Assembly (NCBI GenBank): GCA_910574745.1
Contig: CAJTCE010000028.1
Location: forward strand, 1 to 51,127
Source of the DNA: Lachnospiraceae bacterium
GTDB lineage: Bacteria > Bacillota > Clostridia > Lachnospirales > Lachnospiraceae
Reading direction: 5' to 3'
Length of the DNA: 51,127 nucleotides
The notes under the pieces are model-generated. The model was not told where the DNA came from, did not search any database, and worked only from the letters and a program-made list of their open reading frames with translations. Every line of letters starts with the position of its first letter. Position 1 is the stretch's first letter. Of the stretch, positions 9,801-49,030 are shown one piece after another. A program made the translations under genes and the position numbers.

Positions 9801-12800
9801 TAGAAGAAATAAACAGTGCTGTAATATTCAATACAAACGGTACAGAAAGTAAGGTTTATATGACTTCTGCTTCTGGTAAAGAAGATAAAACAAAGGTTGG
9901 AAATCATAAGGTTATTCTCTCTGGACAAAATGTGTATTTTGACCAGAACGGAAAAATTGCTTTTGGCGAGCTGGTAAATGATAACAACAGCCTCAGAGTT
10001 TTATCGAATAATTCGTTATATACCGTTGATAAAGTTTTCATGGGATATACGACCATAGATGCATTAAAAACAGATATGTCTCGTTCTTATACCGGATATT
10101 TATTCCTCAATGATTCTGACGAATTAGAAGAAATTTTCTTTGATGCAGAATCCAATGCGTATACAGATGTTTCCGGTAATATATTAAGTGACGGTACCCG
10201 TTGCTATAAAGAAGACGAAATATACTTTGTAGACTACGATATTGACAACAAAGGATATAAATTAAATACAAGAGCGTGGGATGATACTATCAATATCGAC
10301 CTTGTGCTTACCGGGGTAGACGGAAATAAGTTTTTAACCGCCTGCGGCGCCGTAATGGATGATGGAAGCGGCTATTATAGCAATGTATTATATGATGCTG
10401 CAACATATCAGAATGCGTATGATAAATTTTTAGAGCGTTATCTGCTTGGCATTGTTGATAAATCATACTTTGTAGAGGCATATCTGGTAAATAGTCTTGC
10501 ATCCGATAAAGATGTGACGAATATACTTCAGGCAAAATCCTATGAACTCGTTATGTTCCCCAGGGAAAACGAGTTGAAAAAATATAATATGTTTGTAGAA
10601 GAATATCGTGTTGACAGTGTGTCCAGTACCTTATGGGGGAAATATACCATTAATATGATTCCCAGTAATTATAATCTGGATGTTTACAGTGAAACTGCCT
10701 ATGAATATATGCCTACAGATATCAGTGCTGAAGCACTCGGAACACCAGAAGTAAGCGAATGGCATGTAAAATATGATAAAAATGCTGCAGATATTCCTAC
10801 GGTTTTAAATTTCTTTACTAATGATAATACTTGTTCTTCCAGTGATTACACCAGAAGAACAAGTAACAATATGTATGATTTGGTCAAACCGAGGATTTAC
10901 GAAGATGTGGAACAGGTTGTAAAATTTACGGCTGATTCATATTCCATCGTTGACAGTAACGCTTTGCATAATTTTAAAATCTATAAAAGGGATTATGACG
11001 GTAATTTGACAGACATTACGGAAAAAGCGGGTGTCACTATTAAAGAAAAAGCATCGGAATATAAGCCTCTGAATGGTGAACATATAAAGAAAATAGTAAA
11101 TACTTATGGAACTTATACGGATAGTAACAGTTTTATCGTTTTGACAGAAGAAGGTCATTTATGGCTAAGTGGAAGTTATAATGGTGGTAGTTACACACCT
11201 CTTGAATCTGAATTAAATATTAATAATTATCAGAATAATTCTTATTCGTTATACCGTGATCCTCTTAAAGAGGGTTTATCATCTTTTGTACAGATTGGCG
11301 GTAATACGAAATTTAAAGATTTTTACTTCAATTACCTGACGCTTGTTGCTATTGATGAGGAGGGTAATTTGTGGGTAAACTGGTCTATAAAAGGCAATAC
11401 TTATTCCTTTGGACTTCATAAGGTATCAGACGGAATAGAATTCACAAAGATTGGTGCTATTGATTATTATAATCCCATCTGTATTCCTCTTTTGGATAAA
11501 GATGGCAATGTTTGGGTCTTTGCATCCAAAAACGGATATAGTGATTCCGGAACAGATTCCATTTTTAACGGCAATATCCATTATAACAGTGGTCTTTCAC
11601 AGTGGAGTCCTGTTACGGACTATTATGGTGCTTCGTCTACTTCTGTCATGGAACAATCTGTATTGATGCAGCTGACTGAAGGTACACGTTTTATAGATGT
11701 CGGTTCGGAGACTGCAAACAGCGAAGGTATTGTAGCTATAGATGAAGATGGAAAAATGTGGATTGGCGGGTATATAAGCAATCTCCCCGGAACATATATT
11801 AACGGTGTTCCGTCTTATTCAAACATTGATTGGAAATATTCTTATATTCCTTATATGAAACAGCTGACGGATATTTATCCGGGAGTATATGATGACATTC
11901 AGTGGATATCTATTGAAGACCGGCGGTATAATACTACTGACACAAGCAGCCATCTTGGTTTCATTGATGCTGACCATAACTTATGGGAATGCTTTGACAG
12001 TAGCTTTGGCTACGAAGTGACAGAAACAAATGTATTAGACGGAGCCGGAAAATACGTATTAGATACGGAAGGTAAAATACACGTCAGAGACGAACACGAA
12101 AAAGCTGAGTGTTTAAGAACAGATAATATCATATTAGAAGATTATACGTTTAAGGAAATCGGCAGCGCATGTTCCCAATATTTCCTTACAGAAGATGGAA
12201 CTTATGTGTTTACAGGTTCAACCGGTGGAGAATCGGTAGGATTACTTGATTCTTATGGTTTTGAAAACTGGTTCTATATTGATTTTTATAGTCCTGCCAT
12301 TACCTATGTGTCTAACAATACGTATGGTACAACATCAGTAAATGATAAATATGGAAATGATACCGGAATCAAAGGTCTTTTCTCCTTTAATGACCCCGGT
12401 GTGGATATTGATACTTTTTCTTTTGAAACAGGACAGCCAGCAGGTTATTCAACGTCGTATGATGTCAGCATTGACATTGAAGCACTTGAAAATATAGGAA
12501 AAGTTAAGATAATGAACGGAGATTCTTTCGTTATTATGGCAAATCCTTCAGACGACACTTTATATCGGATAACGGATGCAGAATCTGTAACTTATGATAT
12601 TGTAGATTCTTATATTACAAATGAGAACGTAACGAGTGATGAGATGAAGTCCAACACCCCGATTACGATGAACACTTTGACTATTGCTCCTGTTACCATG
12701 AGTATGGATAATTCCATCTACTATTTGAAGAGCAATTATGCAAGTGATGAGATCGATTATTATTCAGATATGATTTCATTAAATGTAGTCGCTTTGGAAA

Positions 12801-15478
12801 GTCTGAAGGCCGAATATGTAGGCGACGATGTAACAGTCGGAACTCATGCCGACACTGACGACGTAAAATTAACGCTCACATACGAAGATGGCCATGAGAT
12901 TGAAATATCCTGGAGCGATTTGACAAAGGCTCCTGACAACCTGTTGGTGGAAAATATCGGACCTAACACCTATGAAGTCGAATTCGAGGGTAAAAAGGCA
13001 ACATTTGACATCAATGGCAAGGTCGGCATTATCAATCTTACTGCTAATTATCCGGAAAGTGTGTTTGTCGGAACAGAGTTTGAACCCGAAAAAGTAACGG
13101 TTACCGCAATCTACTCTGACGGCAGCACTACAACACCAGATATAGACTGGAAGAATGTTGATAAAGTCATTAAACAAATAGGGAATAACCGATATGTCAT
13201 TAACTATGAAGATGTATCAACAAATTTGATTATTCAGGGATACTATTATAATAAATTAACAGCAGAATATCATGGCAATCCTATCAATATTTATGAATCT
13301 TATAACAAAGAAGATGTTGATGTGACCATAACATATACTGAGAATAATCTAGGAAAAACAGAAGATATATTGACTTCTGATGAATGGAAGGAAGATTCTT
13401 TAATCGTTTCAGCCGTAGGCGAAAATATTTTTACGGCCGTATTGGTTTCTGACCCGAAATTCAGTGATACTTATTCTGTAGAAGGTCTTGATTACTTTAC
13501 TTCTTTACGTGCTACATATATGGGCGAAGATATTCTGACAGGTAATGATTATGATAAAGATGATGTACTTGTTGAAGGTATCAATAAATCGGATGGAAAC
13601 GGTGTTATAATTCCTTCTGATGAATGGACTGAAAGCGGACTGACGGTAACTGCTAACGGTAAAAACCTGTTTACGGCATCTTATAATGGTTTAAATGCTG
13701 ACTATTATGTTAATGGATATAGTGAGGGACTGCAGGCCACTTATGTCGGAGATGATATTTTAGTAGGTAAAACCTACAATAAAAATGATGTTGAAGTTTA
13801 TGTAACCGACACAAAAGGCAGCCGCATCCGGATAAATACCGAAAACTGGACAGAAGACAATCTTGTTGTGACACTTGATGGAAACAATGAATTTACAGCC
13901 ACTTATAATGGAATGCAAGATACTTTTACCGTTAATGGATATCAAATAGCAGGACTTACAGCAATTTATACCGGTAATGCCATTCCTGTCGGAGAAAAGT
14001 ATGAAAAAATTGATGTTGTGGTTATTGCTAAATACAGTAACGGAACGGAACGTCAATTAGCTCCAGACGAATGGAACGAAAGTGATCTGGTTGTTACAAA
14101 CGTAGGAGATAATGATTTTACCGCTTCCTACAATGGATATAAAGCAGATTATGTTGTTCCGGGAATGGGAATTGTTGCTATCAGAGCCAATTATAATGGT
14201 AAAGATATTTTTGTTGGAAACTCCTATAATAAAAAGGACGTTGAAGTCGTTGCCATTTATAGCGATGGCAGTGAAACCATTTTAGATAAAAATGAATGGA
14301 CTGAAAGCGACCTGAAAGTAAAAGCCATAGGAAATAATGATTATATTGCATCTTATGACGGTCTCGAAGCTGATTACGTTGTTCCAGGATATGACATTAA
14401 AGGTATTACTGCAGAATATCATGGAAAAGACATTCTGGTGGGAGAGAAGTATGACAAGAAGGATGTGGTCGTCACTGTAGAATATACTAATGGAACAAAA
14501 AGAACATTAGAGCCGGATGACTGGAAAGAAAGCAGCCTTGTCGTAGAAAAGGATGGCGATAACACATACAAGGCACATTATAATGAATTTACTGCTGAAT
14601 ATACCGTTTTAGGATATAAGGTTATTGGTATCAGTGCTGTCTATAAGGGCGAACCTATTAAAGTAGGTAACGATTACGAAAAAGCTGATGTCTTGGTAAA
14701 ATTACTGTTTTCAAATAATACAGAAAAGGATCTGAATATAGAGGATTGGACAGAAAGTAGTTTAGAAGTTACCAGAGATGGGAAAAATAACTATACAGCT
14801 ACTTATGATACATTCACAGCAGATTATCAGGTATTAGGATATACAGTTACAGAACCTAAGGTCGTTAAAGTTGAGGGCCGGTACCCAGAAGATGTATTGG
14901 TTGGCAATAAATACGAGGAAATGAAAGCAATTATTACAATAACCTATGACAATGGAGAAACATCAGAATTAGATTATAATAAGCTGGATGCAAAGCCAGA
15001 TGATACTACTGTTAAACAGATAGGAGAAAATCAGTATCCAATTGCATATAAAGGCATTATAGGAACTATGATTGTAATAGGTTATGATATTGATAAAATA
15101 ACTGCTGAATATAAAGGTCCTGATGTAATCGTAGGTAAAGAGTATTCTAAAGATGATGTAATTGTTACAGTTCATTATACAAATGGAAAAACTGCTCAAA
15201 TAACGGATTTCTCAGTTGATAGCTTGACAGTAACAAAAGTGGGCGAAAATAATTACATTGCTACCTATAAAGGAAAAACTGCACAATATGTAGTCATGGG
15301 AATTATAGAGCCAACAGATGTTATAGCTGCTAAAGCAGAAAAACCATTAGACAATTTTATTATAAATGTAAAAACCGGAGACTCATCTCCTGTAGTTTTA
15401 TGTATAATACTTATAATAATAGGAATTACTGCTTTGGTATTGCTATTTGTATACAAACACAAACATCATAGAAGATAA
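3845..15478 (+). CDS. Giant repetitive cell-surface protein (3877 residues) with C-terminal anchor
   Basis: A Sec signal peptide is clear at the N terminus: KRILSLLLAFTFVFGGI, cleavage likely near residue 35 (TYGAA). After a variable region come Cys-pair repeats of the type TC-x-GxxxYxCxxCG (about residues 450-725, with stray copies near 1135 and 1315-1365). RCC1-like beta-propeller repeats follow near 1015-1115 (NIWAFGKNEWSQCG) and 2420-2820 (NVWVF, KMWIGG). Eleven Ig-like repeats of about 75 residues fill 2985-3820. The end has VKTGD (3842-3846), a membrane helix (about 3850-3869) and the basic tail KHKHHRR, the layout of a sortase-type anchor with a variant motif. It is probably exported and wall- or membrane-linked, acting in adhesion. 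No enzyme domain was recognised. The frame is intact over 11.6 kb, which argues for selection. Confidence 0.9.
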   Translation: MKIKLFNEWYKRILSLLLAFTFVFGGISPILTYGAATDSSSDVEATPQWNGSYRINTYNGYVYNYSNNSIDIYGTCLLTEDGHFFRANAISDTYSDTLYNLRGYQIYDQTLENGRWYEPFISKTFKNAYFGKSNILLVGHDGKLYQAYYRDIGKDYDTYLNEIGITESDIDDVNLIEDLIKTKDNNYYTFSGKQSNISSGNVNYFTANISNYYANARYDAGNKIIIFSCGVASAQRASTTVNIPDDVILMKTRTEGSAPYSNIYFDIYTKSGKKYIYNVTGSITNYSSTSNIKATLISETETGYVGTVAGKFINTDGYLVETDGTVYGHDNYSYDTDILKIDKDGNIYGGYGSSDGDDFTSYSGNLSHMCTYSSANVSFTEEELNDNITKTFVCSCGKTYEISAVDYNNIDPDGYSEPTEPTCTEPGGIYLNAPITGEALTDGIITSNALGHSCTKRVDVTPATCTQKGTYGYQCTRCDYIMTSQSYTTDMIPHTFGGVYSRTTGSCTDEFYGYKICSVCNQEIAVDHITNGQHIESEDYTVETEPTCLKDGLKYKTCSVCGEKLEDTIINTPRLEHQFEITDNTATCTKSGKGNYTCTLCGIDYKTLRTEPLGHDYVSHIKTAATCGNTGIEEFICSRCGDTFEEEIEGTIHDYISKTEKEPTCTETGVMKYTCKGCGDSYTEKILPLEHDYIADVKKEATADTQGLIMYTCSKCGDQFEVITAKDNGIRVYAGSKRILVNDTNNGHMYFTGPNDNNVEGQTVSLENTIDDEYGTRQMRMTVAAQESINYGNAVYYYGTPTSSYWGMNTLDEIITIDDDCAKEWVYYSGCDYLKGAYGKNSAVKSTGHDFPNGIRTYVGNGTVDVSSGTNYLLFVDRDGKFYTVNRYFHLCDHVGGKNENMMRSANLWTYENIKFKEISSMEKTAAGLLTDGRIAVINTNFVEDDINLYDYKKANGLGEGLDADEWHQPKISITEGNIRFTAESAGTFGIYGIDTNGHLRHINNDGSYSEPLNDTIYTKVSSGKDHCLVLDINGNIWAFGKNEWSQCGNGQTADISVPEQITSGIYFTDISAGYQISAAIDAAKNYYAWGHNNYSQCGVLKDGVNTITTPTVMFNVSHVHYYNKDSYKLISTPTCEQDGVVKRTCLECGNTEEIYTPARAHDYIEPFRIYDHYVNYKKDVTDEPLYHFEPNASTVIDLYVKEPDVYTVAVEHAESGSVYIVAFSKSQSNVFRFVANGSESTSAYTNMTSVSNSSAETGFFDGVYYSRFSYAMAGDYNCDMTTPLVDGKSPEVTAADAIWESAKAEMNANQDCSAEHHVRKICKYCYDSIYEDVPAGQHTISKMGDKTSKPGYTQWRCSVCGELIKEELNAYSVRMTLKDESSTYSKMEYFAKPEQFSTSLATDEEFTLPDEGTNSGEFIIDFGPFKTADGKNKIVGKSVVDHYVFHGTTYYPGDVIKNLSTTENDTITIQVVYRMEFEFPDVLYYKDSQYAVKQYELGLIPYSGIHFMPDYWNRRATYTVGESVLKDGFGNKINVIASGTHIYAYPSVKTAMASGNATYQSCVDYVKDIPEDYVYLWEPAASTRYSMSVTQPNVYTVAVKYPSVIYIVAFNLSDEGVLTYNYNTGDNYATSAKVSDVITESVSDYDNKNIFFDGVYYSMSNCSSSGTTNCDLTVTESSNPTDPVAPVITALNAVYDRYASASAKDAYAEDLNKDAKNDYGDKTYTIASSSIDHLFNSKEEAEEVFDDAEIEWTEKTRNAYYNVTVKMTTDGSNSTSTCGYLNGLSTYYVGFQKTYGRKIYVIPGIKDVVPNYRNYGIYDGYEGSNTLTLSAYSYVNSITLHNTLDGTETTCSDINNLPKYIYNDDKTKILIGWSLEEGSDVLYIPNVTKPIKNIDLYSVWTTVSEELGDYKFNEPVYKPVNEFNKDDQFYANDILLIGSNDTNGFQKAFFGTENTTAEIKLKTNNDTLKSVFNEYMKGAETINGLEEINSAVIFNTNGTESKVYMTSASGKEDKTKVGNHKVILSGQNVYFDQNGKIAFGELVNDNNSLRVLSNNSLYTVDKVFMGYTTIDALKTDMSRSYTGYLFLNDSDELEEIFFDAESNAYTDVSGNILSDGTRCYKEDEIYFVDYDIDNKGYKLNTRAWDDTINIDLVLTGVDGNKFLTACGAVMDDGSGYYSNVLYDAATYQNAYDKFLERYLLGIVDKSYFVEAYLVNSLASDKDVTNILQAKSYELVMFPRENELKKYNMFVEEYRVDSVSSTLWGKYTINMIPSNYNLDVYSETAYEYMPTDISAEALGTPEVSEWHVKYDKNAADIPTVLNFFTNDNTCSSSDYTRRTSNNMYDLVKPRIYEDVEQVVKFTADSYSIVDSNALHNFKIYKRDYDGNLTDITEKAGVTIKEKASEYKPLNGEHIKKIVNTYGTYTDSNSFIVLTEEGHLWLSGSYNGGSYTPLESELNINNYQNNSYSLYRDPLKEGLSSFVQIGGNTKFKDFYFNYLTLVAIDEEGNLWVNWSIKGNTYSFGLHKVSDGIEFTKIGAIDYYNPICIPLLDKDGNVWVFASKNGYSDSGTDSIFNGNIHYNSGLSQWSPVTDYYGASSTSVMEQSVLMQLTEGTRFIDVGSETANSEGIVAIDEDGKMWIGGYISNLPGTYINGVPSYSNIDWKYSYIPYMKQLTDIYPGVYDDIQWISIEDRRYNTTDTSSHLGFIDADHNLWECFDSSFGYEVTETNVLDGAGKYVLDTEGKIHVRDEHEKAECLRTDNIILEDYTFKEIGSACSQYFLTEDGTYVFTGSTGGESVGLLDSYGFENWFYIDFYSPAITYVSNNTYGTTSVNDKYGNDTGIKGLFSFNDPGVDIDTFSFETGQPAGYSTSYDVSIDIEALENIGKVKIMNGDSFVIMANPSDDTLYRITDAESVTYDIVDSYITNENVTSDEMKSNTPITMNTLTIAPVTMSMDNSIYYLKSNYASDEIDYYSDMISLNVVALESLKAEYVGDDVTVGTHADTDDVKLTLTYEDGHEIEISWSDLTKAPDNLLVENIGPNTYEVEFEGKKATFDINGKVGIINLTANYPESVFVGTEFEPEKVTVTAIYSDGSTTTPDIDWKNVDKVIKQIGNNRYVINYEDVSTNLIIQGYYYNKLTAEYHGNPINIYESYNKEDVDVTITYTENNLGKTEDILTSDEWKEDSLIVSAVGENIFTAVLVSDPKFSDTYSVEGLDYFTSLRATYMGEDILTGNDYDKDDVLVEGINKSDGNGVIIPSDEWTESGLTVTANGKNLFTASYNGLNADYYVNGYSEGLQATYVGDDILVGKTYNKNDVEVYVTDTKGSRIRINTENWTEDNLVVTLDGNNEFTATYNGMQDTFTVNGYQIAGLTAIYTGNAIPVGEKYEKIDVVVIAKYSNGTERQLAPDEWNESDLVVTNVGDNDFTASYNGYKADYVVPGMGIVAIRANYNGKDIFVGNSYNKKDVEVVAIYSDGSETILDKNEWTESDLKVKAIGNNDYIASYDGLEADYVVPGYDIKGITAEYHGKDILVGEKYDKKDVVVTVEYTNGTKRTLEPDDWKESSLVVEKDGDNTYKAHYNEFTAEYTVLGYKVIGISAVYKGEPIKVGNDYEKADVLVKLLFSNNTEKDLNIEDWTESSLEVTRDGKNNYTATYDTFTADYQVLGYTVTEPKVVKVEGRYPEDVLVGNKYEEMKAIITITYDNGETSELDYNKLDAKPDDTTVKQIGENQYPIAYKGIIGTMIVIGYDIDKITAEYKGPDVIVGKEYSKDDVIVTVHYTNGKTAQITDFSVDSLTVTKVGENNYIATYKGKTAQYVVMGIIEPTDVIAAKAEKPLDNFIINVKTGDSSPVVLCIILIIIGITALVLLFVYKHKHHRR
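5200..6015 (+). repeat. Cys-pair repeats in the giant surface protein
   Basis: Seven or eight degenerate repeats of 35 to 45 residues share the pattern Thr-Cys, Gly, aromatic residue, Cys-x-x-Cys-Gly, often ending in Gly-His or His-Asp-Tyr. Examples are TCTQKGTYGYQCTRCD and TCTETGVMKYTCKGCG. One copy has lost the first Cys (EATADTQGLIMYTCSKCG). Such repeats are frequent in secreted Lachnospiraceae proteins. They may bind metal or be disulphide-bonded. Confidence 0.8.
12799..15302 (+). repeat. Eleven tandem Ig-like domain repeats of about 225 bp
   Basis: Protein-level repeats of about 75 residues with the core xxAxYxGxxIxVGxxYxKxDVxVxxxYxxG ... WxESxLxV ... GxNxYxAxYxGxxAxYxVxGY. They match the style of bacterial Ig-like surface domains. 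Repeats 4 to 9 are the most alike; the first three and the last two diverge. The DNA copies differ at many synonymous sites, so the array looks old rather than freshly amplified. Confidence 0.8.
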
Positions 15479-21713: not shown

Positions 21714-21849
21714 TCAATTTACTAATTTCATTTGCAATGTAAAAAATGAACCGTCAACTAGGTTGGGGGAGTATAAAGAGTCTATAGAAAAATATTATAA
21801 AGAATACCGAACATTGCAAAAAACAGGAAAATATGATAGAATCTTATAA
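21703..21849 (+). CDS. Small protein (48 residues) overlapping the HAD gene
   Basis: The ATG lies 11 bases inside the end of the HAD-like gene, in another frame, typical of translational coupling. The product starts MIYNQFTNFICNVK, then a charged helix (YKESIEKYYKEYRTLQKT). It is followed by an intrinsic terminator 36 bases downstream, which marks the operon end. No family was recognised, and no strong ribosome binding site is visible apart from the coupling. Confidence 0.5.
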   Translation: MIYNQFTNFICNVKNEPSTRLGEYKESIEKYYKEYRTLQKTGKYDRIL

Positions 21850-21884
21850 ATTTGTGGGAAAAAGTTTGTAATGGGATATTTGTT

Positions 21885-21912
21885 AAAAGATATGTGTATG
21901 CATATCTTTTTT
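21885..21912 (+). terminator. Intrinsic terminator ending the DUF3825-HAD operon
   Basis: AAAAGATATG and CATATCTTTT form a ten-pair stem with a six-base loop, followed by TTAT. It fits the end of the plus-strand operon. Confidence 0.8.
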
Positions 21913-29087: not shown

Positions 29088-29158
29088 TTCTCCATCATCC
29101 TCTTTTCCATATCCTTAAAATTAGAAAGAATTTTAATAATTTCTGACCTATTACTCAT
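29084..29158 (-). CDS. Tiny ORF (24 residues) between the AAA ATPase and GIY-YIG genes
   Basis: It starts inside the end of the ATPase gene and its stop overlaps the ATG of the GIY-YIG gene (ATGA), so it could couple translation of the two. The peptide is MSNRSEIIKILSNFKDMEKR plus four residues. No Shine-Dalgarno site is obvious. It may be real, a coupling device or a deletion remnant of a longer gene. Confidence 0.4.
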   Translation of the reverse strand: MSNRSEIIKILSNFKDMEKRMMEK

Positions 29159-30071
29159 TAAAATCGCTTCCAATCTCATCATAAATTTTCTTAGAAATCA
29201 TGTGTATTAGTTCGTTCATTATCATTGATTGATTTTGATCATTTTCAACCAATGTCGTAAGCTCTTTATAAGAAAAATTCATGTCAACATCTTTTAGGAA
29301 TTTTTTTATAAATTCTTCCTTTTCATTTCTATTTAGTGGTTTTACCTCATGCTTTAAGGAAAATCGTCTTAACAAGGCCTCATCTATTCTATCCATGCGG
29401 TTTGTTGCCCCAATAACGATAATATTATTAGGCAGCTTATCAAATTCTTGCATAATAGATATTGTAACCCTTGCTATTTCTCCACCGGGGCCACCACTAT
29501 CATTGGAATTTGACCGTCTTAGACTTATGCAATCAATTTCATCCAGCATAAATACGCAGGGATGTAATATAGCATAGCTAAAAGCCTTACTGATATTCTT
29601 TGATGTGGCACCCAAGTGGCTATCAATCAAATTTGAGAAATTAAGATAACAAAATGGCAGTCCACTCTTGTAAGCAACATACCTGCCAAATGTTGTCTTG
29701 CCTGTACCACTTTCTCCATAAAGTAGCGTCGAATTTATGTATTGTATACCCATTTCCATAAGTCGTTCATTGACTTTCTTCATACAAATAATGTTGTAAA
29801 GTATTGCCTTTTCTCTTTCAGAAAGATAATACCTATTCTCTTTAAATGAATTTGAAACATCTTCCACACAAAGAATGGATTTCAACTCATATGGCAGTTC
29901 AATCATGTTACTACCTGAACCTTCTAAAATCTGCTTAAATTTGTTACAAAAACACCTGTTTTTTTGTGTATTGTCTTCATATACACAGGCAATTGCAAAC
30001 TTTTTAGCAGCTATCAAATTGTTCTCAGATACCGCTTTTATTAACTGTTTTTGGTTATCTGTTAATCCCAT
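29151..30071 (-). CDS. AAA+ ATPase
   Basis: 306 residues. Walker A is GESGTGKT (119-126), Walker B is VFMLDEID (173-180), sensor 1 is ATN (222-224) and an arginine-finger pair is at 235-236 (LLRRF). The spacing matches classical AAA modules of the spastin/FtsH type. The N-terminal 100 residues form a helical domain with ankyrin-like helices (LIKAVSENNLIAAKKFAIAC). With phage genes around it, it could remodel protein or DNA complexes. Start overlaps a 23-residue ORF upstream. Confidence 0.85.
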   Translation of the reverse strand: MGLTDNQKQLIKAVSENNLIAAKKFAIACVYEDNTQKNRCFCNKFKQILEGSGSNMIELPYELKSILCVEDVSNSFKENRYYLSEREKAILYNIICMKKVNERLMEMGIQYINSTLLYGESGTGKTTFGRYVAYKSGLPFCYLNFSNLIDSHLGATSKNISKAFSYAILHPCVFMLDEIDCISLRRSNSNDSGGPGGEIARVTISIMQEFDKLPNNIIVIGATNRMDRIDEALLRRFSLKHEVKPLNRNEKEEFIKKFLKDVDMNFSYKELTTLVENDQNQSMIMNELIHMISKKIYDEIGSDFNE

Positions 30072-42826: not shown

Positions 42827-44173
42827 TTACTTTTCTTTCATGTACGATTCATGACTTCCATCAAGAACCGATATTTCTGACTCATTTTCAAAATACCAGC
42901 CATAAGGTTCTAATACCGCATAACCCTTCAGCAATGCGTCTCCTCTTTCCTGGTCAAAATGGCCATAATAATTATATGTTTCATTTGTCCCTGTCATTGA
43001 AGTGTGTAAAATAATCAGCATTTGATGAAGTATGCTAAGCTCTTCAACTTTTTTAATTGCTTCCTGCTTTTCTTCATCGGTACATTTGTACTCCTCTTTG
43101 TCAAGGAAAAATCCTTTCAAGCTAGATTGATATGCATATGTTCTAAGCGCAAGTAAGGCCTGCCAAATTGCATCCTTTACATTCTCCTCATTCTTAATCG
43201 GAGCTATCTTTCCTGTTATAATGTTCTGGATAAATTCCTTGCGGCGCACCGAACTTTCTTTTAACACTGCCTTAATCTGCTTCTTGGACTCACTGATTTG
43301 CTGCTGCTTTATCTCATGCTCAGAAAGTTTTTTTCCCTCTTTAGGAACTTTTACAATAACTTTTAATGTTCTGTAATATACCAACCAATACATTTGTGCA
43401 TTTTCCTTACTAAGGTTCAACTGCTTTGGAGGTTCTTTATCAAGGTCAAACTCCTGTATGGTTTTCCATTTAGAGGACCATACTTCGTTTTCTACCTCTT
43501 TTGGAGCTTGCTCAATTCCCATTTTTTCCAGCATTCCGCTGATTTTATTTTTACATGATTCTCTCTTGGCCGCGGATACAGCATTTTGTACCTTGCTTAC
43601 TAAATCTCTTGAACTGTTAGACTCAGCTAAAATTTTATTTCTTATACTTACATCAGAAATTTTTTCTAATTCGTATAAGTCTTTTAATGAAAGCTGAAAA
43701 CATTCATCCTGTTCTTTCTTTTTCAGTTCTTCCTGATTAAGTTTCGCAATATTCAAACGATGCTTTACTGTTGCTTTAGAAAAACCCGTTTTTTCCGCAA
43801 TACCTTCTTCAGTTTCTCCAAGATCAAGCATCATCTGAAATCCATTCGCCTGTTCGCAAATCGTCAAATCATTACGCTGCATATTTTCTTCCAACATGAT
43901 AGACATTTGTTCTCTTGGAGTCAAATTCTCTGATATTTGGCACGGAAACGCTTTTACTCCTGCCTGTACACCGGCTGCATATCTCCTGTGACCGATAATT
44001 GTCATATACTCTCCCGGTTCTCCTTCTATCGGAATAACTGTCAGATTCTGCAGGATTCCATTCTTCTTGATAGACTCTACCAATTCTGTTAGGTCTCCTA
44101 AATTTTTCCTAGGATTTTCCGGGTGAGGCTTAATATGCTCAGCTGCAATATAAGAAATCTTTTTGTCTTTCAT
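42827..44173 (-). CDS. parB: ParB/RepB/Spo0J-type partition protein
   Basis: 448 residues. The N-terminal ParB domain shows HPENPRKNLGDLTELVESIK, the CTP-binding/nuclease-fold motif YMTIIGHRRYAAG (about 57-69) and the HTH EEGIAEKTGFSKATVKHRLN. The C-terminal 250 residues are an unassigned helical extension, longer than in Spo0J. No ParA gene is next to it, and no parS-like repeats were found, so it may be an orphan ParB-like regulator of a phage or plasmid. It overlaps no gene but starts one base before the end of the gene at 44174. It is under control of leader A. Confidence 0.85.
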   Translation of the reverse strand: MKDKKISYIAAEHIKPHPENPRKNLGDLTELVESIKKNGILQNLTVIPIEGEPGEYMTIIGHRRYAAGVQAGVKAFPCQISENLTPREQMSIMLEENMQRNDLTICEQANGFQMMLDLGETEEGIAEKTGFSKATVKHRLNIAKLNQEELKKKEQDECFQLSLKDLYELEKISDVSIRNKILAESNSSRDLVSKVQNAVSAAKRESCKNKISGMLEKMGIEQAPKEVENEVWSSKWKTIQEFDLDKEPPKQLNLSKENAQMYWLVYYRTLKVIVKVPKEGKKLSEHEIKQQQISESKKQIKAVLKESSVRRKEFIQNIITGKIAPIKNEENVKDAIWQALLALRTYAYQSSLKGFFLDKEEYKCTDEEKQEAIKKVEELSILHQMLIILHTSMTGTNETYNYYGHFDQERGDALLKGYAVLEPYGWYFENESEISVLDGSHESYMKEK

Positions 44174-44563
44174 TTATTCTTCCTCCACTGTTTTTATTTC
44201 AAAAAAGTTTTTCTCAATTTCTGTCATTTCACATACTTCGTCAAAATATTCAATAGCAGCTCCTTCTTCATTTTCCTCCAAAAGTGCATCTTTAAGTAGC
44301 GTCGCCAGCTCCTCAAGCCTAGAGCGTGAAATATATTTTTTCTCTGTCAAAGAGCGAAAATTTTCCAGCGCACAAGATAAAACCTCAGGTTGAGTACATC
44401 CAGATATTTTAGCTCCCCTAAATTCAAAGCCACGATACCAAACAGTCCCGTCCCATGTTCCCATTTTCTTATCAAGTCCACGAACAACTGCATACTCTTT
44501 TAATTCATTTCCACGAAGAATAAGTGCATATTCTCCCTCTTCTAAAATAATTTCATATTTCAT
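44174..44563 (-). CDS. Hypothetical protein, first gene behind leader A
   Basis: 129 residues, acidic and soluble. It reads MKYEIILEEGEYALILRGNE at the start, with WDGTVWYRGFEFRGAKISG and a long acidic helix LLKDALLEENEEGAAIEYFD. No family was recognised. A CAGGAGGTATTGTAA region precedes the ATG. It precedes parB without a gap and is controlled by the double-terminator leader A, so it is co-regulated with parB. Confidence 0.7.
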   Translation of the reverse strand: MKYEIILEEGEYALILRGNELKEYAVVRGLDKKMGTWDGTVWYRGFEFRGAKISGCTQPEVLSCALENFRSLTEKKYISRSRLEELATLLKDALLEENEEGAAIEYFDEVCEMTEIEKNFFEIKTVEEE

Positions 44564-44573
44564 TTACAATACC

Positions 44574-44838
44574 TCCTGATAGTTTCTAAAAAATATATAG
44601 TAATGATTGTATATAAAACAGGTCCTTTCCCTGTGTAAAAAAATTACATATAAAAAGACAAACTTTTTTCTTTGCTTAATAAATAGAAAAAAGAATGTCT
44701 TTTTACATTTCCATAATTTATATGAACGTGAGCTTCCACGGTAAAAGAGGTATTTTACCCCTAAAAACAAAAATACACCCATAACATATAGGGTGCTAAC
44801 GAATCACTTATTACAATTTTTAAAATAACAAATTATAG
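44574..44838 (-). promoter_or_regulatory. Structured leader A with two tandem terminators
   Basis: From the promoter at 44843-44871 the RNA passes terminator T1 (GCACCC/GGGTGT, 44796-44775, T run to 44763). It then passes a hairpin AGGGGTA/TACCTCT (44762-44745), the hairpin CGTGGAAGCTCACG (44740-44727), and T2 (AAAAGACA/TGTCTTTT, 44704-44652, T run after it). A hairpin CAGG...CCTG (44633-44619) precedes the ribosome binding site. The same order and several exact blocks recur in leader B, with compensating changes in the second and third stems. No ORF fits. The gene behind it can only be expressed if both terminators are bypassed. Confidence 0.75.
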
Positions 44839-44842
44839 ATAT

Positions 44843-44871
44843 ATTATATAATAATTATTAATTATTGTCAA
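44843..44871 (-). promoter_or_regulatory. Consensus SigA promoter of leader A
   Basis: TTGACA (44871-44866), 17 bases, TATAAT (44848-44843): a full consensus match. The spacer ending AATAATTATTA and the flanking ATATA are shared with the promoter of leader B. Confidence 0.9.
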
Positions 44872-44905
44872 AAGAAAAAGACCTGATACTGTAAAGTACC
44901 AAGTC
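44871..44905 (-). terminator. Intrinsic terminator of the operon upstream of leader A
   Basis: GACTTGGTAC and GTATCAGGTC form the stem (G-U pairs included) with a six-base loop, then TTTTTCTTTT. The T run merges directly into the -35 of the leader A promoter. It closes the operon 46722-44926. Confidence 0.85.
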
Positions 44906-44925
44906 TTTCCATAACGTATTTGTAT

Positions 44926-45141
44926 TTATTTTTCAATTACTATGAAACCCTCTTTTTCTAACTCTTCCATAGTCCATTCAGGTTTGTCTTCGTCATACCA
45001 TTGAATATTTTCGCTTTCACATTCCCCACAAGAAGTTCCACCTAATTGTATAAGCATTACTTCTCCACAGTCCATACATCTTACAAGATCGCCACTATGA
45101 TTCATATTTAGGCAATCTACATATACTTTTACCTCTTCCAT
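44926..45141 (-). CDS. Small zinc-ribbon protein (71 residues)
   Basis: Two Cys pairs, CMDC (about 22-25) and CGEC (about 38-41), flank a short beta segment (GEVMLIQLGGTS), typical of a zinc ribbon. The remainder is acidic (WYDEDKPEWTMEELEKEG). The last gene of the five-gene operon behind leader B, with the terminator at 44871-44905 after it. Function unknown; possibly a regulatory or nucleic-acid-binding protein. Confidence 0.75.
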   Translation of the reverse strand: MEEVKVYVDCLNMNHSGDLVRCMDCGEVMLIQLGGTSCGECESENIQWYDEDKPEWTMEELEKEGFIVIEK

Positions 45142-45163
45142 TGCCTCTATTCTCCTTTTTATA

Positions 45164-45700
45164 TTAAGCTAAAATTCTGCAGTCAACAAAATAGTTGCCA
45201 TATGCCATACACAATACATCCGGAATACAGTCTGCTGTACATTTGTACTTATCTCTAAACGATTCTTTCAGCAAGATCTGTCCTCCGTCAACTTCCGTCA
45301 TACCCGGGCAGAGTTCATATTGATCATAATAGATGTAATCAACATATCCTTTATCCTGGTCTTCCGGAAGTAGATTGTCTCCAAGCCCTTCAGCAATTCG
45401 AACGATCTCATTCATTTCTGGAACAAATACAAACAAATCATTATAGCCTTCTGGTTTTTTTTCAAAGCACGTTTTAGACCAAATGATTTCTGCTGGATGC
45501 TGATTCAAATAGTCCTTTTTGCCGACTTTCTCCCATTCTTCTTCATCGTACCTACAACTATAATTCATGAATTTTGAGTTCGGATACTTTTCTCTAAAAG
45601 CAAAATCTGCATCGCAATAATCGGATGCTACAACAATCAGATATGCATTTTGATATGGATACTTCTTACAATTTCCAAATGTGTAATAATACTTTTTCAT
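45164..45700 (-). CDS. Hypothetical protein (178 residues)
   Basis: Starts MKKYYYTFGNCKKYPYQNAY, a pattern common in small Lachnospiraceae mobile-element proteins. Later pieces are VASDYCDADFAFREKYP, KFMNYSCRYDEEEW and a C terminus with CIPDVLCMAYGNYFVDC. It is soluble and acidic with seven Cys. GGAGGTTATGAT precedes the start. No function can be derived. Fourth gene of the leader B operon. Confidence 0.75.
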   Translation of the reverse strand: MKKYYYTFGNCKKYPYQNAYLIVVASDYCDADFAFREKYPNSKFMNYSCRYDEEEWEKVGKKDYLNQHPAEIIWSKTCFEKKPEGYNDLFVFVPEMNEIVRIAEGLGDNLLPEDQDKGYVDYIYYDQYELCPGMTEVDGGQILLKESFRDKYKCTADCIPDVLCMAYGNYFVDCRILA

Positions 45701-45711
45701 ATCATAACCTC

Positions 45712-45942
45712 CTAAATTTTAAAAGCGTACTGAAAATTATCCATTACATCGGCAGAAATCAACCGATCCGGATAGGCAGTTCCAGTTGTGTTACACCAGC
45801 TAGCCTCTTCTCTTATTTTTGCAATCATTTCAAGGCTGCATCCATGCCGTATAGCTCTCCTTGCAAGCCGCCACAGCCTAACAGCTTCCTTTTCTGATTT
45901 TTCTATAAGTTCCTGTCTAATTTTTTCTAAATATTTATTCAT
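45712..45942 (-). CDS. Hypothetical helical protein (76 residues)
   Basis: A short helical protein: NKYLEKIRQELIEKSEKEAV, then RLWRLARRAIRHG, then a polar end. AGAGAGGTAGTAT precedes the ATG. It lies between the two neighbouring genes of the leader B operon with gaps of about 11 to 20 bases. Unknown function. Confidence 0.7.
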   Translation of the reverse strand: MNKYLEKIRQELIEKSEKEAVRLWRLARRAIRHGCSLEMIAKIREEASWCNTTGTAYPDRLISADVMDNFQYAFKI

Positions 45943-45961
45943 ATACTACCTCTCTAATATT

Positions 45962-46378
45962 TTAATTACTGAATAAGGTGTTTTCATCTACAACCGCATA
46001 AATTAGAAATTCATTTTCAATATCTTCTTCTTCTAAATCCAGTTGGGCAAGAATTCTCGAAAAACTCTCTTTCGAATAATCTTCACGATAAATAGGAACC
46101 TTTTTTAAATATGGTTGGAAATGTGCGTGTAAACGGATATATTCCATAATTTCCGTTTTTGTACATTCTTTGCATATTCTAAAAGCACATTTAATTAATG
46201 CCTGACAAATTTTATCAGATCCTAATTTTTCTTCTTTTACCTCAAAAATTTCATTCTCTTTAATGGAAGAAATATTTGATATTCCATTTTCAAGAATGTA
46301 AGAAAATATAGCCATTTCCATTCGTGAATCAAATTCCTCCTCAATTATTCTTCCAATCTTTGTTTCATAATACTCCAT
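45962..46378 (-). CDS. Hypothetical protein (138 residues)
   Basis: I took MEYYETKIGRIIEEEFDSRM as the start (46378) since GGAGGTAATTTAAAG precedes it. The frame is helical and acidic with a KCAFRICKECTKTEI segment. No known motif. Its start overlaps the end of the preceding gene region (46381) so the two are linked. Second gene of the leader B operon. Confidence 0.7.
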   Translation of the reverse strand: MEYYETKIGRIIEEEFDSRMEMAIFSYILENGISNISSIKENEIFEVKEEKLGSDKICQALIKCAFRICKECTKTEIMEYIRLHAHFQPYLKKVPIYREDYSKESFSRILAQLDLEEEDIENEFLIYAVVDENTLFSN

Positions 46379-46380
46379 CT

Positions 46381-46722
46381 TTAAATTACCTCCCATTTCC
46401 CAATAACTACAGTTATTGTTCTTTTACAAATTTGAACCTTATTGGTATCCATATAGCTTGGCATCAATTTTTCTCTTATTCTTTCGTTTAAGCGTGACCG
46501 GCAAAGTTCTTCTGTATGCATTGGTCTCCCATCGGAAATCATTTTCTGTTCCCTAGAATCCCAAATAAATGCTTGATATTCATATTCGCTGCACTCATCA
46601 TAATTTTGATATTCAACCAGTGAAATACCTGATTCTTCTGTCCATTGCATTTCATTCTCAAAGGTATTGCCTGTTTCAGCTAGCCTCTTTTCATCTACTT
46701 CCAAAATTGCAAAAACTTTCAT
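46381..46722 (-). CDS. Hypothetical protein, first gene behind leader B
   Basis: 113 residues starting MKVFAILEVDEKRLAETGNT, with WDSREQKMISDGRP and a basic end (ICKRTITVVIGKWEVI). AGGGAGGAAACAAA is a strong ribosome binding site. It is the first gene behind leader B and so the direct readout of that leader. No family was recognised. Confidence 0.75.
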   Translation of the reverse strand: MKVFAILEVDEKRLAETGNTFENEMQWTEESGISLVEYQNYDECSEYEYQAFIWDSREQKMISDGRPMHTEELCRSRLNERIREKLMPSYMDTNKVQICKRTITVVIGKWEVI

Positions 46723-46989
46723 TTTGTTTCCTCCCTACTAATATTCATAAAATTAATTTATTACTCTCTTACTATGTAAACAGGCTTTTGTCCTGGATAA
46801 AAAATTACATATAAAAAAACTGCCTATTTTAATTAATTGAAAAAAGACAGTTCTTTTACATTCCTATAATATATATAATCGTGGGGTTCCACGGTAAAAG
46901 GGATATTATGTCCCTGAAAATAAAAAAGCACCCCATAAAAGGATGCAAACAAATTTCCTATAACAAATATATCTAATAACAAACTATGA
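46723..46989 (-). promoter_or_regulatory. Structured leader B with two tandem terminators
   Basis: Homologous to leader A. T1 is GCATCC/GGGGTGC (46946-46928) with TTTTTTA. Hairpin 2 is AGGGA/TCCCT (46914-46900). Hairpin 3 is CGTGGAACCCCACG (46893-46880). T2 is AACTG/CAGTT (46852-46818) with TTTTT. A last hairpin CAGGACAAAAGCCTG (46795-46781) precedes the ribosome binding site. Hairpin 3 has the same CGTGG...CACG frame as in leader A but a different interior. The conserved order suggests a shared regulatory mechanism. Confidence 0.75.
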
Positions 46990-46993
46990 ATAT

Positions 46994-47022
46994 ATTATAT
47001 AATAATTATTAAGTTTTGTCAA
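46994..47022 (-). promoter_or_regulatory. Consensus SigA promoter of leader B
   Basis: TTGACA (47022-47017), 17 bases, TATAAT (46999-46994). The 11 spacer bases before the -10 (AATAATTATTA) equal those of leader A. Confidence 0.9.
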
Positions 47023-47060
47023 AACAAAAAGACCCAGTACCTTATTAGATACTGAGCCTC
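47022..47060 (-). terminator. Intrinsic terminator of the operon upstream of leader B
   Basis: GGCTCAGTATC and GTACTGGGTC pair around a short loop, followed by TTTTTGTTTT that runs into the promoter of leader B. The layout copies that at leader A (44871-44905). Confidence 0.8.
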
Positions 47061-47105
47061 TTTAGATTAAGCAATATACACATTATTTAAATCAATATGC
47101 ATAGT

Positions 47106-47195
47106 TTAATTGGAAAAACGGTTATTCTGATTCATTCTAACCACTGCTCTTCCAACTCCTGAGCCATAATAAGTGTTGGTTTCTATTTCAAACAT
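47106..47195 (-). CDS. Possible tiny protein (29 residues)
   Basis: MFEIETNTYYGSGVGRAVVR and nine more residues. The ribosome binding site is weak (AAAAAGAT). It lies after the 47222 gene and just before the terminator. It could be real, or the end of a degraded gene. Confidence 0.35.
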   Translation of the reverse strand: MFEIETNTYYGSGVGRAVVRMNQNNRFSN

Positions 47196-47221
47196 ATCTT
47201 TTTAAATAACAGAAAATATTA

Positions 47222-47497
47222 TCAGCAACTATACCAGGGAATTCCCATCTGATCTAACTCTTTAATTCTTTCTACAAGGGTTTCAAAACTGTATCCACAG
47301 ACTCCCATTAACATTGCGTCAGCAACTTCAAAGTCTCTTTCGGTTGTACACATATCGTTGAATACACCTATGATTCCTTGTGCCATGTCACAGGTGCTAT
47401 TATCATCCTCCTGGATAGCATCATAAAAATTTTCTCCAAGCTTATTCTCAAAATTTTCAATTTCCTTATATGCTTTATCTAAAATTTCTTCATTCAT
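47222..47497 (-). CDS. Hypothetical acidic protein (91 residues)
   Basis: From the second Met (MNEEILDKAYKEIENFENKL), with AAGGAGATAATGAAA upstream; the first Met is only three bases from the GGAG. Helical and acidic, with CDMAQGIIGVFNDMC and VADAMLMGVCGYSFETLVER. Similar small proteins are frequent in Lachnospiraceae mobile elements. Function unknown. Confidence 0.7.
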   Translation of the reverse strand: MNEEILDKAYKEIENFENKLGENFYDAIQEDDNSTCDMAQGIIGVFNDMCTTERDFEVADAMLMGVCGYSFETLVERIKELDQMGIPWYSC

Positions 47498-47557
47498 TTT
47501 CATTATCTCCTTAAAATTTTTTTATTCAATCTATTTAATTAAATCGTTTTTATTTAT

Positions 47558-47580
47558 GTCCCCCTGCTATGCAGGGGGAC
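47558..47580. repeat. GC-rich perfect palindrome (10-pair stem)
   Basis: GTCCCCCTGC, loop TAT, GCAGGGGGAC. There is no T run next to it. A second short palindrome, TTTTTGTTT AC AAACAAAAA (47590-47609), lies ten bases to the right. Both are in the 135-base gap between two minus-strand genes. Confidence 0.85.
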
Positions 47581-47632
47581 AATAACTGCTTTTTGTTTAC
47601 AAACAAAAAATCTGGTAGTAAAAAACTTTTGT

Positions 47633-47824
47633 TTATTCAATACAAAATTTTTTATAAAATTCTTCTAAAATATCATCTGGCATCTGGTCATATGCTTCAT
47701 TCATCAATTCTTCTATTTCGTCTTTTTCTTTTCCGCATGTCATTCCATAGCCAATAAATTCTTCGATATAGTCTGTTCCCCAGTCAAATAATGCCTTCTT
47801 CAATTGGTCGAATCTTCTATCCAT
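47633..47824 (-). CDS. Hypothetical acidic protein (63 residues)
   Basis: MDRRFDQLKKALFDWGTDYI at the start, then ELMNEAYDQMPDDILEEFYK. Short, acidic and helical; an AGGAGGTATATAAAAT site precedes the ATG. The following gap holds two palindromes. No function known. Confidence 0.7.
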   Translation of the reverse strand: MDRRFDQLKKALFDWGTDYIEEFIGYGMTCGKEKDEIEELMNEAYDQMPDDILEEFYKKFCIE

Positions 47825-47934
47825 ATTTTATATACCTCCTTATACTTAATAATAAAATATTTCTTCCCAGTTATTGCAGGAATTTCCATACTCTATTTCT
47901 AAACCAAGATTTTTGGATTCCTCACACTCATTGT

Positions 47935-48276
47935 CTATTTTAATACTACTACAAATTGTTCTAACCAATTCTCACTTACATTCCCGGCAAGAATATTGTC
48001 TATATCGTCCATAATTGAATCAATATCACATCTGATAAACAAATCAGCTTTGTTCAACTCATTTATCTTATTTTCAATTATTTTGGACAAATTAACAGTA
48101 ACGCCATTGCTTCTAATTTCTTCCACGGTCAAAAGCTTAGATAAATCGGACATTGCCTTATCCCATTTATCATCAGGTTTTCCACCATAGAAATATGTTT
48201 CCATATCATAATCTTTATCCCACACTGTCAACTCTTCACCTTTTGGCATAAGTTCCAAATAATTATATAAAGTCAT
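47935..48276 (-). CDS. Hypothetical conserved protein (113 residues)
   Basis: MTLYNYLELMPKGEELTVWD and YFYGGKPDDKWDKAMSDLSK are hallmarks of a family common in Lachnospiraceae mobile elements. ENWLEQFVVVLK is a natural-looking end. AGAGAGGTTAAGAT precedes the start. Function unknown. A second frame of 40 residues starts within its last codons (TTG at 47968) and runs to 47846; it has no ribosome binding site and may be chance. Confidence 0.8.
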   Translation of the reverse strand: MTLYNYLELMPKGEELTVWDKDYDMETYFYGGKPDDKWDKAMSDLSKLLTVEEIRSNGVTVNLSKIIENKINELNKADLFIRCDIDSIMDDIDNILAGNVSENWLEQFVVVLK

Positions 48277-48315
48277 ATCTTAACCTCTCTTTCTCCTATA
48301 AAATTCCGATTCTAT

Positions 48316-48627
48316 TTATTTACTTTCTAATAACCATTCTTCAATACTTCTATATTTATCTTTAATGTTCACATTTTCGTTGAGATGGTTCACTACATGA
48401 AGAAATGCTGCTTCCATACTTGTATATCTTCTACTCCATGTTTCATATGTTCCTATCTTTTTCCCATACAACGAATATTTGAAAGGTTCATACATTTTTT
48501 CTTCTTTTCGTAATGTAAATTCCCACATCTGAGACATCATAAAAGAAAATGTATCTACTTCTCCTTCTTTCCACAAATTTTCTTCTTGTATGGTTCGTAA
48601 AACATATTCTTTTGTCATTTCTTGCAT
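48316..48627 (-). CDS. Hypothetical protein (103 residues)
   Basis: MQEMTKEYVLRTIQEENLWK, TFSFMMSQMWEFTLRKEEK and SRRYTSMEAAFLHVVNHLNE. Soluble, with aromatic clusters. AGAAGGGTGTATT precedes the ATG. A typical member of the small-gene array in this part. Unknown function. Confidence 0.7.
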   Translation of the reverse strand: MQEMTKEYVLRTIQEENLWKEGEVDTFSFMMSQMWEFTLRKEEKMYEPFKYSLYGKKIGTYETWSRRYTSMEAAFLHVVNHLNENVNIKDKYRSIEEWLLESK

Positions 48628-48672
48628 AATACACCCTTCTTTCTAAAACCTTGAAATCCTGATTTTCAGTCT

Positions 48673-48777
48673 TTATTTGATAGTTGTCTCTTCTATATAC
48701 CATTCATAGTAAATATCTCCATCTGGCACAATCAATTGTGCGCTGTTATCATTTTCTGATGTTTGATATCGATAACC
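48673..48777 (-). pseudogene. Relic reading frame without a start codon
   Basis: In frame it reads GYRYQTSENDNSAQLIVPDG then DIYYEWYIEETTIK and a stop. The upstream AGGAGG (about 48793) is present, but no ATG, GTG or TTG follows in the right frame and place. It looks like a small gene that lost its start, or one that uses an unusual initiation codon. Confidence 0.4.
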
Positions 48778-48784
48778 TTACTCT

Positions 48785-49030
48785 TTATTTTATCCTCCTA
48801 CAATACTCTTCAATGCACTTTCTGTTTTCTGGAGTATCGATCCACCCAAGATATCTTCTATCAAAATTTTCTGACAAATCCTCTATAGGAATAATCTTAA
48901 TTCCATCTTTTATTGCCTGTCTCACAGCTTCTTTATCACTCCTAAATTTATTATCACTATCAATTTTTTCAATTTCTAACATTCCCGTTCCTTCAAAATC
49001 AAAAATACCATATCCAATTATATTATTCAT
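48785..49030 (-). CDS. Hypothetical protein (81 residues)
   Basis: I chose MNNIIGYGIFDFEGTGMLEI as the start because GGAGG lies eight bases before; two earlier Met codons sit inside or next to the ribosome binding site. The rest includes EAVRQAIKDGIKIIPIEDLS and ENFDRRYLGWIDTPENR. Unknown function. Confidence 0.7.
   Translation of the reverse strand: MNNIIGYGIFDFEGTGMLEIEKIDSDNKFRSDKEAVRQAIKDGIKIIPIEDLSENFDRRYLGWIDTPENRKCIEEYCRRIK

Follow-up and report, generated by a model that had tools for sequence, protein, structure and literature searches.

How can genes be expressed when two transcription terminators stand between them and a perfect promoter? The question is raised by a 51,127-nt stretch of Lachnospiraceae DNA (the window, contig C28), in which two leaders, A and B, each about 300 bp long and AT-rich, carry in the same order a TTGACA-17-TATAAT promoter, a first terminator (T1), two hairpins (P2 and P3), a second terminator (T2), a further hairpin (P6), a Shine-Dalgarno sequence and an ATG. 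These leaders belong to a larger set: judged by sequence, the genome holds at least 15 of them (seven of class I, which includes A and B, four of class II, two of class III and two single ones), and the feature common to all 15 is a triple repeat located before T1. We favour a reading, with a probability of about one half, in which the leaders define an establishment-type regulon that is kept off by default termination and is switched on by an antiterminator acting in trans and loading at the repeats. If this is true, a shared leader would keep at least 15 operons off until a common signal permits run-through.

Leaders A and B belong to a family of seven

An earlier note on this DNA had described A and B as homologous double-terminator leaders behind near-identical perfect promoters. 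This description held: B matches a 243-nt stretch of A at 76% identity, all listed parts are present in both, and the promoter scan of positions 43000-49000 found no 12/12 matches other than the two at leaders A and B. Hairpins P3 (CGTGG/CACG) and P6 (CAGG/CCTG) recur in the two leaders, and the arms of P2 read AGGGGTA/TACCTCT in A and AGGGA/TCCCT in B. Both leaders fold more strongly than their dinucleotide shuffles (z -5.1 for A and -3.6 for B, with 0 of 200 shuffles as good). A simple terminator scan picked up T1 of B and missed T1 of A, because its loop is longer than the scan permits, as well as both T2 hairpins; these three terminators rest on folding.

A blast search of the same genome (4.35 Mb in 106 contigs) gave seven class I leaders, two on the window contig, four on contig C30 and one on contig C2. 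All seven have TTGACA and TATAAT, separated by 17 nt in six copies and by 18 in copy F, and carry T1, P2, P3, T2 and P6. In an alignment of six copies (omitting copy F, which MAFFT had shifted) 96.1% of the cells were paired, a value equalled by 23 of 500 shuffles, and five pairs had changed on both sides, against a shuffle mean of 2.5 and with 12 of 500 shuffles reaching five; sliding the partners cut pairing to 41-62%. Arm by arm, paired cells amounted to 42/42 in T1, 34/35 in P2 and 33/35 in P6 (seven copies each), to 44/45 in P3 (nine copies, class III included) and to 97/99 in T2 (nine copies; eight G-U and no A-C). Changes on both sides were seen in 2 of 6 pairs of T1, 3 of 5 of P3, 3 of 11 of T2 and 1 of 5 of P2, the last bearing out the compensatory change that had been proposed for this hairpin. 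Supported pairs thus exist in T1, P2, P3 and T2, and the covariation, which could not be proved from A and B alone, appears to hold with six to nine copies; the support is moderate because the copies are few and related.

The wobbles in these pairs, read in the transcript sense, number 24 G-U against a single A-C, indicating that pairing is kept on the transcript-sense strand. This bears on the idea that the leaders are single-stranded DNA promoters or single-strand origins (Frpo/sso-like), used when an element enters a cell as single-stranded DNA. Several inverted repeats before establishment-type operons, including ssb, would suit such a role, and Frpo-like promoters upstream of ssb genes are on record (in the available part of PMC11541004). 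A single-stranded DNA promoter, however, must fold on the template strand, whereas the G-U wobbles lie in the transcript sense. DNA folding of the seven class I copies gave paired fractions of 0.46-0.93 for the -35 box and 0.19-0.64 for the -10 box (averages, either strand; the values cover the degree of pairing and not the partners, and the -10 position of copy F is one base off). We find this explanation hardly credible.

A triple repeat is common to all 15 leaders

Self-comparison of the joined contigs turned up a four-copy family, class II, beside the seven-copy one, and the two share a motif directly before T1. Two class III leaders came from a motif scan; their 3' parts have a P3-like hairpin and a T2 resembling class I. 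With a model trained on the 5' module sequences of 13 leaders and used in this genome to score 150 of 4960 first-look candidates, we added leader N at C30:15379 (E 4.3e-4), in which promoter, repeat and T1 are present. Leader O, matched by the model at window position 21832 (E 0.004) and likewise having promoter, repeat and T1, had first been seen in looser motif scans (position 21852) and is not part of the model. The eight leaders beyond class I share with it the 5' part, T1 and the triple repeat, so that the earlier proposal of a leader common to two operons of one element is borne out on a larger scale.

The rule common to the leaders, whose triple repeat the earlier note does not describe, is a -10 box followed by TTNGT, WGTNAT, TTNGT and the T1 hairpin, with NTAGT as third repeat in leader N and in class III. 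The Gs of the last two repeats lie 14 nt apart in 16/16 leaders (the 15 described here and one in a second genome, G005, whose middle block is GTAAA), and those of the first two lie 14-16 nt apart. The motif with its terminator occurred 13 times in the 189.5 kb of the element described below and nowhere in 205 kb of chromosome (C2:1-205000). Each of 30 dinucleotide shuffles gave 0-2 occurrences (mean 0.3), and seven other genomes, about 1 Mb in all, gave three matches ascribed to chance; as the rule was drawn from these same copies, the 13 matches are no independent test of it. The matches at C30:15379 and in G005 were used neither for the model nor for the rule. Within this genome the 15 best matches of the model are all inside the element, 13 of them being its training copies, and the next ones are C2:267656 (E 0.024) and C20:30366 (E 0.04). 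The first of these lies in the stretch C2:267537-267711, where repeats 2 and 3, in 14-nt spacing, stand upstream of a gene (C2:266347-267537) for a 396-aa protein without a Pfam family, possibly an autoregulated regulator.

Attenuation by a leader peptide or by ribosomes was rejected as the common rule, because an ATG is present in the 5' module of only 7 of the 15 leaders (class I 1/7, class II 4/4, class III 0/2, plus N and O) and the frames differ.

A putative conjugative element carries the leaders

On C2 the GC content drops from about 40-51% to 30-35% near 210 kb, and it is also low on C30 (30-39%, in 5-kb steps) and C28 (31-40%). Among the products of the low-GC part of C2 are a VirD4-type coupling protein (E 1e-48), ATPases of the TraG (P-loop) and T2SSE types, an S1-domain protein and a topoisomerase. 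Based on the low GC and the shared leaders, we infer that C2:210-297 kb, C30 and C28 are parts of a single integrated conjugative element, at least about 190 kb in size.

The leaders precede ssb, CobT-like VWA, DNA methylase, ParB and YodL/SNase operons. Specifically, the class II leaders stand before an ssb-like gene, a CobT-type VWA gene, ssb and a DNA methylase gene, the two ssb names being given by eye (one protein had no Pfam match, the other was not scanned) and the methylase match lying below the Pfam cut-off. Leader O is upstream of a PDDEXK_2 gene at 22154. The stretch with the type IV secretion system (T4SS), C2:213147 to 267656, gave no match of the 5' module model at E<=10 among the candidates scored. 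The five small proteins of the leader B operon have no Pfam family above the cut-off.

Two class I leaders on C30 have unusual surroundings, seen by eye. Leader D (C30:34771-35400) passes straight into an open frame that lacks a start codon, which looks as though the beginning of the gene had been replaced by the leader. Behind leader E lies the gene of a 428-aa protein resembling an IS110-type transposase (C30:37220-38926), the operon being seemingly interrupted. Elsewhere in the element, window positions 3845-15478 encode one protein of 3877 aa, which by eye is rich in repeats and apparently anchored at the surface. An AAA ATPase at 29151-30071 of the window strongly matches IetA of the IetAS anti-phage system (PADLOC, 2.5e-50); its match to the NCBIfam IteA model, at 152.7 bits, is under the cut-off of 510.

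Relatives of the leaders in other genomes

The earlier note knew of no described riboswitch or put-like element with this layout, and the Rfam searches agree with it. The window has no match at gathering score, and the seven matches with E up to 5 in 44500-47100 are all below that score, the best being SpF11_sRNA, which lies upstream of leader A and reaches 32.3 of the 54 bits needed. Stretches of C30 and C2 matched group II introns only; two group II intron domain matches (C30:1180-1461) lie near the contig start, close to the class III leader at C30:1847. In the literature covered, judged by title and start of abstract and with most subscription journals outside the coverage, no such leaders are described.

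The covariance-type search that had been suggested succeeded in the genome itself and found no relative elsewhere: a model of the class I T1-P2-P3 core, built on six copies, matched at E<=0.001 only the seven copies already known among 397 family genomes, their own included. Blastn with leader B in plasmids and phages and a search of viral contigs with the 129-aa protein encoded after leader A gave no relative. A pattern of P3 and its flanks had no match in viral contigs and one in a collection of 84,980 species (which may leave out the genome studied here), rejected as a chance match because it is a run of unrelated palindromes (L081). Two matches of the triple-repeat pattern in viral contigs were rejected as well, being without a terminator by eye. 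In the stretches around ParB homologues of eight other genomes the core model found no such leader, with one weak match in G253 (E 1.4). Upstream of the ParB homologue of G443 (C1:1546707, 1547388 and 1565189) we saw three repeated stretches that by eye resemble variable target genes of the diversity-generating retroelement type.

The 5' module model reached further. In 295 relatives it matched 13 other genomes at E<=0.01, one of them convincingly, and in 358 family genomes three others, weakly; the searches over 40 genomes with either model ran with strict filters. The convincing match, in G005 of the same genus (E 1.9e-7), has the -10 box, repeats spaced 14/14 and T1, before a putative transposase gene (Transposase_31). 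The layout was present in one of the seven stretches read, L190, which is G005 (the others were L191-L193, L199, L200 and L202; L194-L198, L201, L215 and L216 were left out). Apart from G005, the set with 14-nt spacing is that of one genome.

A homologue of the VWA gene of the element is present in 31 of the 397 genomes, again including its own. Near that of G054, of another genus, three putative leaders (C1:1414588, 1417404 and 1433945) have TTGACA, a palindromic ACTATATATAGT-type spacer (with one mismatch in the third) and a -10 box, then TTTGT immediately 5' of a hairpin of the TTCCGG..CCGGAA type, and a long T2 that includes seven Ts in a row. A further one at C1:5446600 has the promoter and TTTGT in common with them, and one such leader lies in G423, about 2 kb away from the VWA homologue of that genome. 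From their sequences, these leaders are similar in architecture and unrelated in sequence to those described above, with repeats that are not 14-spaced and T2 as the only strong terminator; the contamination listed for G054 and G423 is 8 and 11%. Blastn with two of the G054 leaders found no relative in one collection each of plasmids and phages. Among the seven VWA-type regions fetched, G054 is the sole one in which the repeat families viewed have a similar plan. The repeat families in the regions of G166, G333, G164 and G198 were rejected for an architecture unlike the leaders; only families of at least three places were viewed, G253 had none and that of G043 was left out.

Default termination and its possible relief

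The anatomy of the leaders predicts termination by default. Directly behind the promoter come the triple repeat and an intrinsic terminator, in many leaders with another terminator further on, and transcription would therefore stop and yield RNAs of roughly 65 and 195 nt. T1 pairs with a probability of at least 0.93 in 14/14 leaders folded from near the start site (C30:15379 was left out), so folding predicts no competing structure upstream that would displace it, and such a default-off design suggests that something acts in trans. To this extent the earlier claim that expression needs a switch, for which a ligand, a protein, a trans RNA and a modified polymerase had been listed as candidates, has support. 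Since two unlike terminators, as in classes I and III, stand in series before many operons, a processive change of the polymerase is suggested over local refolding, and since the promoter-proximal repeat is the one feature common to all classes, a trans factor at the repeat is favoured. Such a factor, most likely element-encoded, would read the repeat as DNA in early elongation or as nascent RNA and would enable RNA polymerase to pass T1 and T2 without terminating. The operons would then switch on together, probably during or after transfer, a timing suggested by the ssb, methylase, ParB and other establishment-type genes that they hold.

The switch could also be an RNA acting in cis, a riboswitch or a put/canT-like antiterminator RNA built from P2 and P3. 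The pairing of both hairpins is kept in class I, and that of P3 also in class III, with changes on both sides; canT and conAn2 are antiterminator RNAs in conjugative elements, according to the accessible parts of PMC11658703 and PMC8955417. However, P2 and P3 lie downstream of T1, so they are unable to relieve it, and in class II and leader N, where T1 and the repeat are present, hairpins like the P2 and P3 of class I are missing (by eye). A put-like RNA is thus less likely than a factor at the repeats, because the common feature is the promoter-proximal repeat and not P2/P3, and we consider a cis switch decidedly improbable. Somewhat better placed, and still improbable, is constitutive attenuation, in which leaky terminators would give low steady expression and abundant short RNAs that may act in trans: the promoters are strong, T1 and T2 are stable and no switch factor was found, but the exact 14-nt second spacing is kept across classes with differing terminators, which points to a recognised site.

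The recognised site might, however, be an operator, and the main rival is a repressor regulon with insulating terminators. Here the triple repeat, placed shortly after the start site, would bind an element-encoded repressor and the terminators would only insulate and dampen leakage; with the repressor absent after transfer, the promoters would fire until it accumulates, a logic like that of EGeRS2. The perfect class I promoters and the nearly fixed position of the repeat after the -10 box agree with this, as do the helix-turn-helix (HTH) proteins that the element encodes, the near match without terminator before the 396-aa gene, and the operators of p576-type EGeRS2, two of which, out of four cases, lie just 3' of the start in the portion of PMC8708921 available. 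On the other side, the 14-bp direct repeats are out of helical phase and apparently non-palindromic (by eye), none of the 11 first genes scanned behind the 15 leaders encodes an HTH Pfam family, and T1 in 15/15 leaders and the second terminator of classes I and III are left unexplained. We regard a repressor regulon as unlikely, though a serious competitor.

Several observations weigh against antitermination in trans at the repeats. The repeat could equally be a plain DNA operator, and the near match at C2:267656, with repeats 2 and 3 and no obvious terminator, would fit an operator too. No second terminator is shown for leaders H, N and O, and P6 has no pair changed on both sides in seven copies. 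In the G054/G423 set the hairpin in the place of T1 has a weak T tract. The G005 leader sits among metabolic genes, with no conjugation genes in 20 kb (open reading frames of at least 120 aa, by eye), which would allow for a factor encoded by the host. No antiterminator was identified, and the genome revealed no NusG paralogue, the single true NusG being at C1:221651 (another match, E 0.2, was taken by eye as ribosomal protein L17 and rejected).

Antitermination at the repeats remains our preferred explanation. A single sequence rule, made up of promoter, triple repeat and terminator, defines the regulon of one element and names its operons, many of which consist of genes of unknown function; it also makes the switch testable with simple reporters and gives a bait for the factor. 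More tentatively, the leaders might belong to a dedicated, previously undescribed antitermination system for the establishment regulon of the large conjugative elements of this family, in which one factor would recognise a promoter-proximal three-part repeat with a 14-nt phase in at least 15 leaders and take the polymerase past unlike terminators, with parallel versions of unrelated sequence in another genus.

Positions of the leaders and their parts

Table 1. Leaders, leader parts and adjoining genes (window positions unless a contig is named).
Feature	Position	Strand	Basis	Detail
Leader A	44871..44564	-		
A, promoter	44843..44871	-	promoter scan	TTGACA-17-TATAAT
A, triple repeat	44799..44832	-		TTTGT / TGTAAT / TTCGT; G-to-G 15 + 14
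A, T1	44769..44796	-	folding	intrinsic terminator, GCACCC..GGGTGT + T tract
A, P2	44746..44762	-	folding + pair comparison	hairpin
A, P3	44727..44740	-	folding + pair comparison	hairpin, CGTGG..TCACG
A, T2	44648..44706	-	folding	long A-tract/T-tract terminator hairpin
A, P6	44619..44633	-		hairpin, CAGG..CCTG
Genes after A	42827..44563	-		129-aa unknown protein, then 448-aa ParB-like protein
Leader B	47022..46723	-		
B, promoter	46994..47022	-	promoter scan	TTGACA-17-TATAAT
B, triple repeat	46949..46983	-		TTTGT / TGTTAT / TTTGT; G-to-G 16 + 14
B, T1	46922..46946	-	terminator scan + folding	intrinsic terminator
B, P2	46899..46915	-	folding + pair comparison	hairpin
B, P3	46880..46893	-	folding + pair comparison	hairpin, CGTGG..CCACG
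B, T2	46811..46859	-	folding	
B, P6	46781..46795	-	pair comparison	hairpin
Genes after B	44926..46722	-		five small proteins (113, 144, 76, 178, 71 aa)
Leader O	21814..21907	+		TTGCAA-17-TAGAAT, triple repeat (14, 14), T1; E 0.004 with the 5' module model
Class II leaders	C2:295.2, 291.7 and 287.5 kb; C30:27.3 kb			
Class III leaders	C2:213.1 kb; C30:1.8 kb (C30:1847)		motif scan	

Comparison with known systems

Leader elements and terminators under processive antitermination are a feature of LoaP and other NusG paralogues. LoaP systems use a NusG paralogue, whereas no second NusG-domain protein was found in this genome.

In biological terms the leaders come closest to the establishment regulon of the pLS20-family plasmids, with the same placement and different parts, as far as PMC8708921 was available. 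EGeRS1 copies, 62-95% identical, have inverted repeats immediately before the ribosome-binding sites of several establishment operons and block upstream transcription, by a mechanism stated there as unknown; EGeRS2 has a strong promoter with operators. No sigma-A promoter was found for EGeRS1, which measures 420-750 bp and is richer in GC than its plasmid, whereas leaders A and B have perfect promoters and are about 300 bp long and AT-rich. EGeRS2 has TTATCCC dual motifs, and terminators are not mentioned in the available part of its description, in contrast to the triple repeat and two terminators, in at least three sequence classes, found here. The Reg dual motif of EGeRS2, TTATCCCnnTTATCCC, had no match with up to three mismatches in the 15 leaders; elsewhere in the element there are three matches with up to two mismatches.

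Antitermination is likewise used in Gram-positive conjugative elements by conAn of pLS20 and canT of Tn916 (available parts of PMC8955417 and PMC11658703). There conAn acts at conjugation operons, whereas here many leaders exist and the T4SS stretch has no match of the 5' module model.

By analogy, the closest working parallels would be AlpA and the Q protein of phage 21, in what was available of the sources. In the AlpA system, specific promoters are separated from their first genes, at two loci, by one or two intrinsic terminators, and a factor confers read-through, a layout similar to that of our leaders (PMC7969949, PMC6606751, PMC11150451). Phage 21 Q binds direct repeats, and our leaders carry direct repeats too (PMC7969949, PMC6606751). 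No factor homologous to these proteins was identified, though no sequence search aimed at one was made. The sites of AlpA, 21Q and GafZ lie between the -35 and -10 boxes, whereas in all 15 leaders the shared repeat follows the -10 box.

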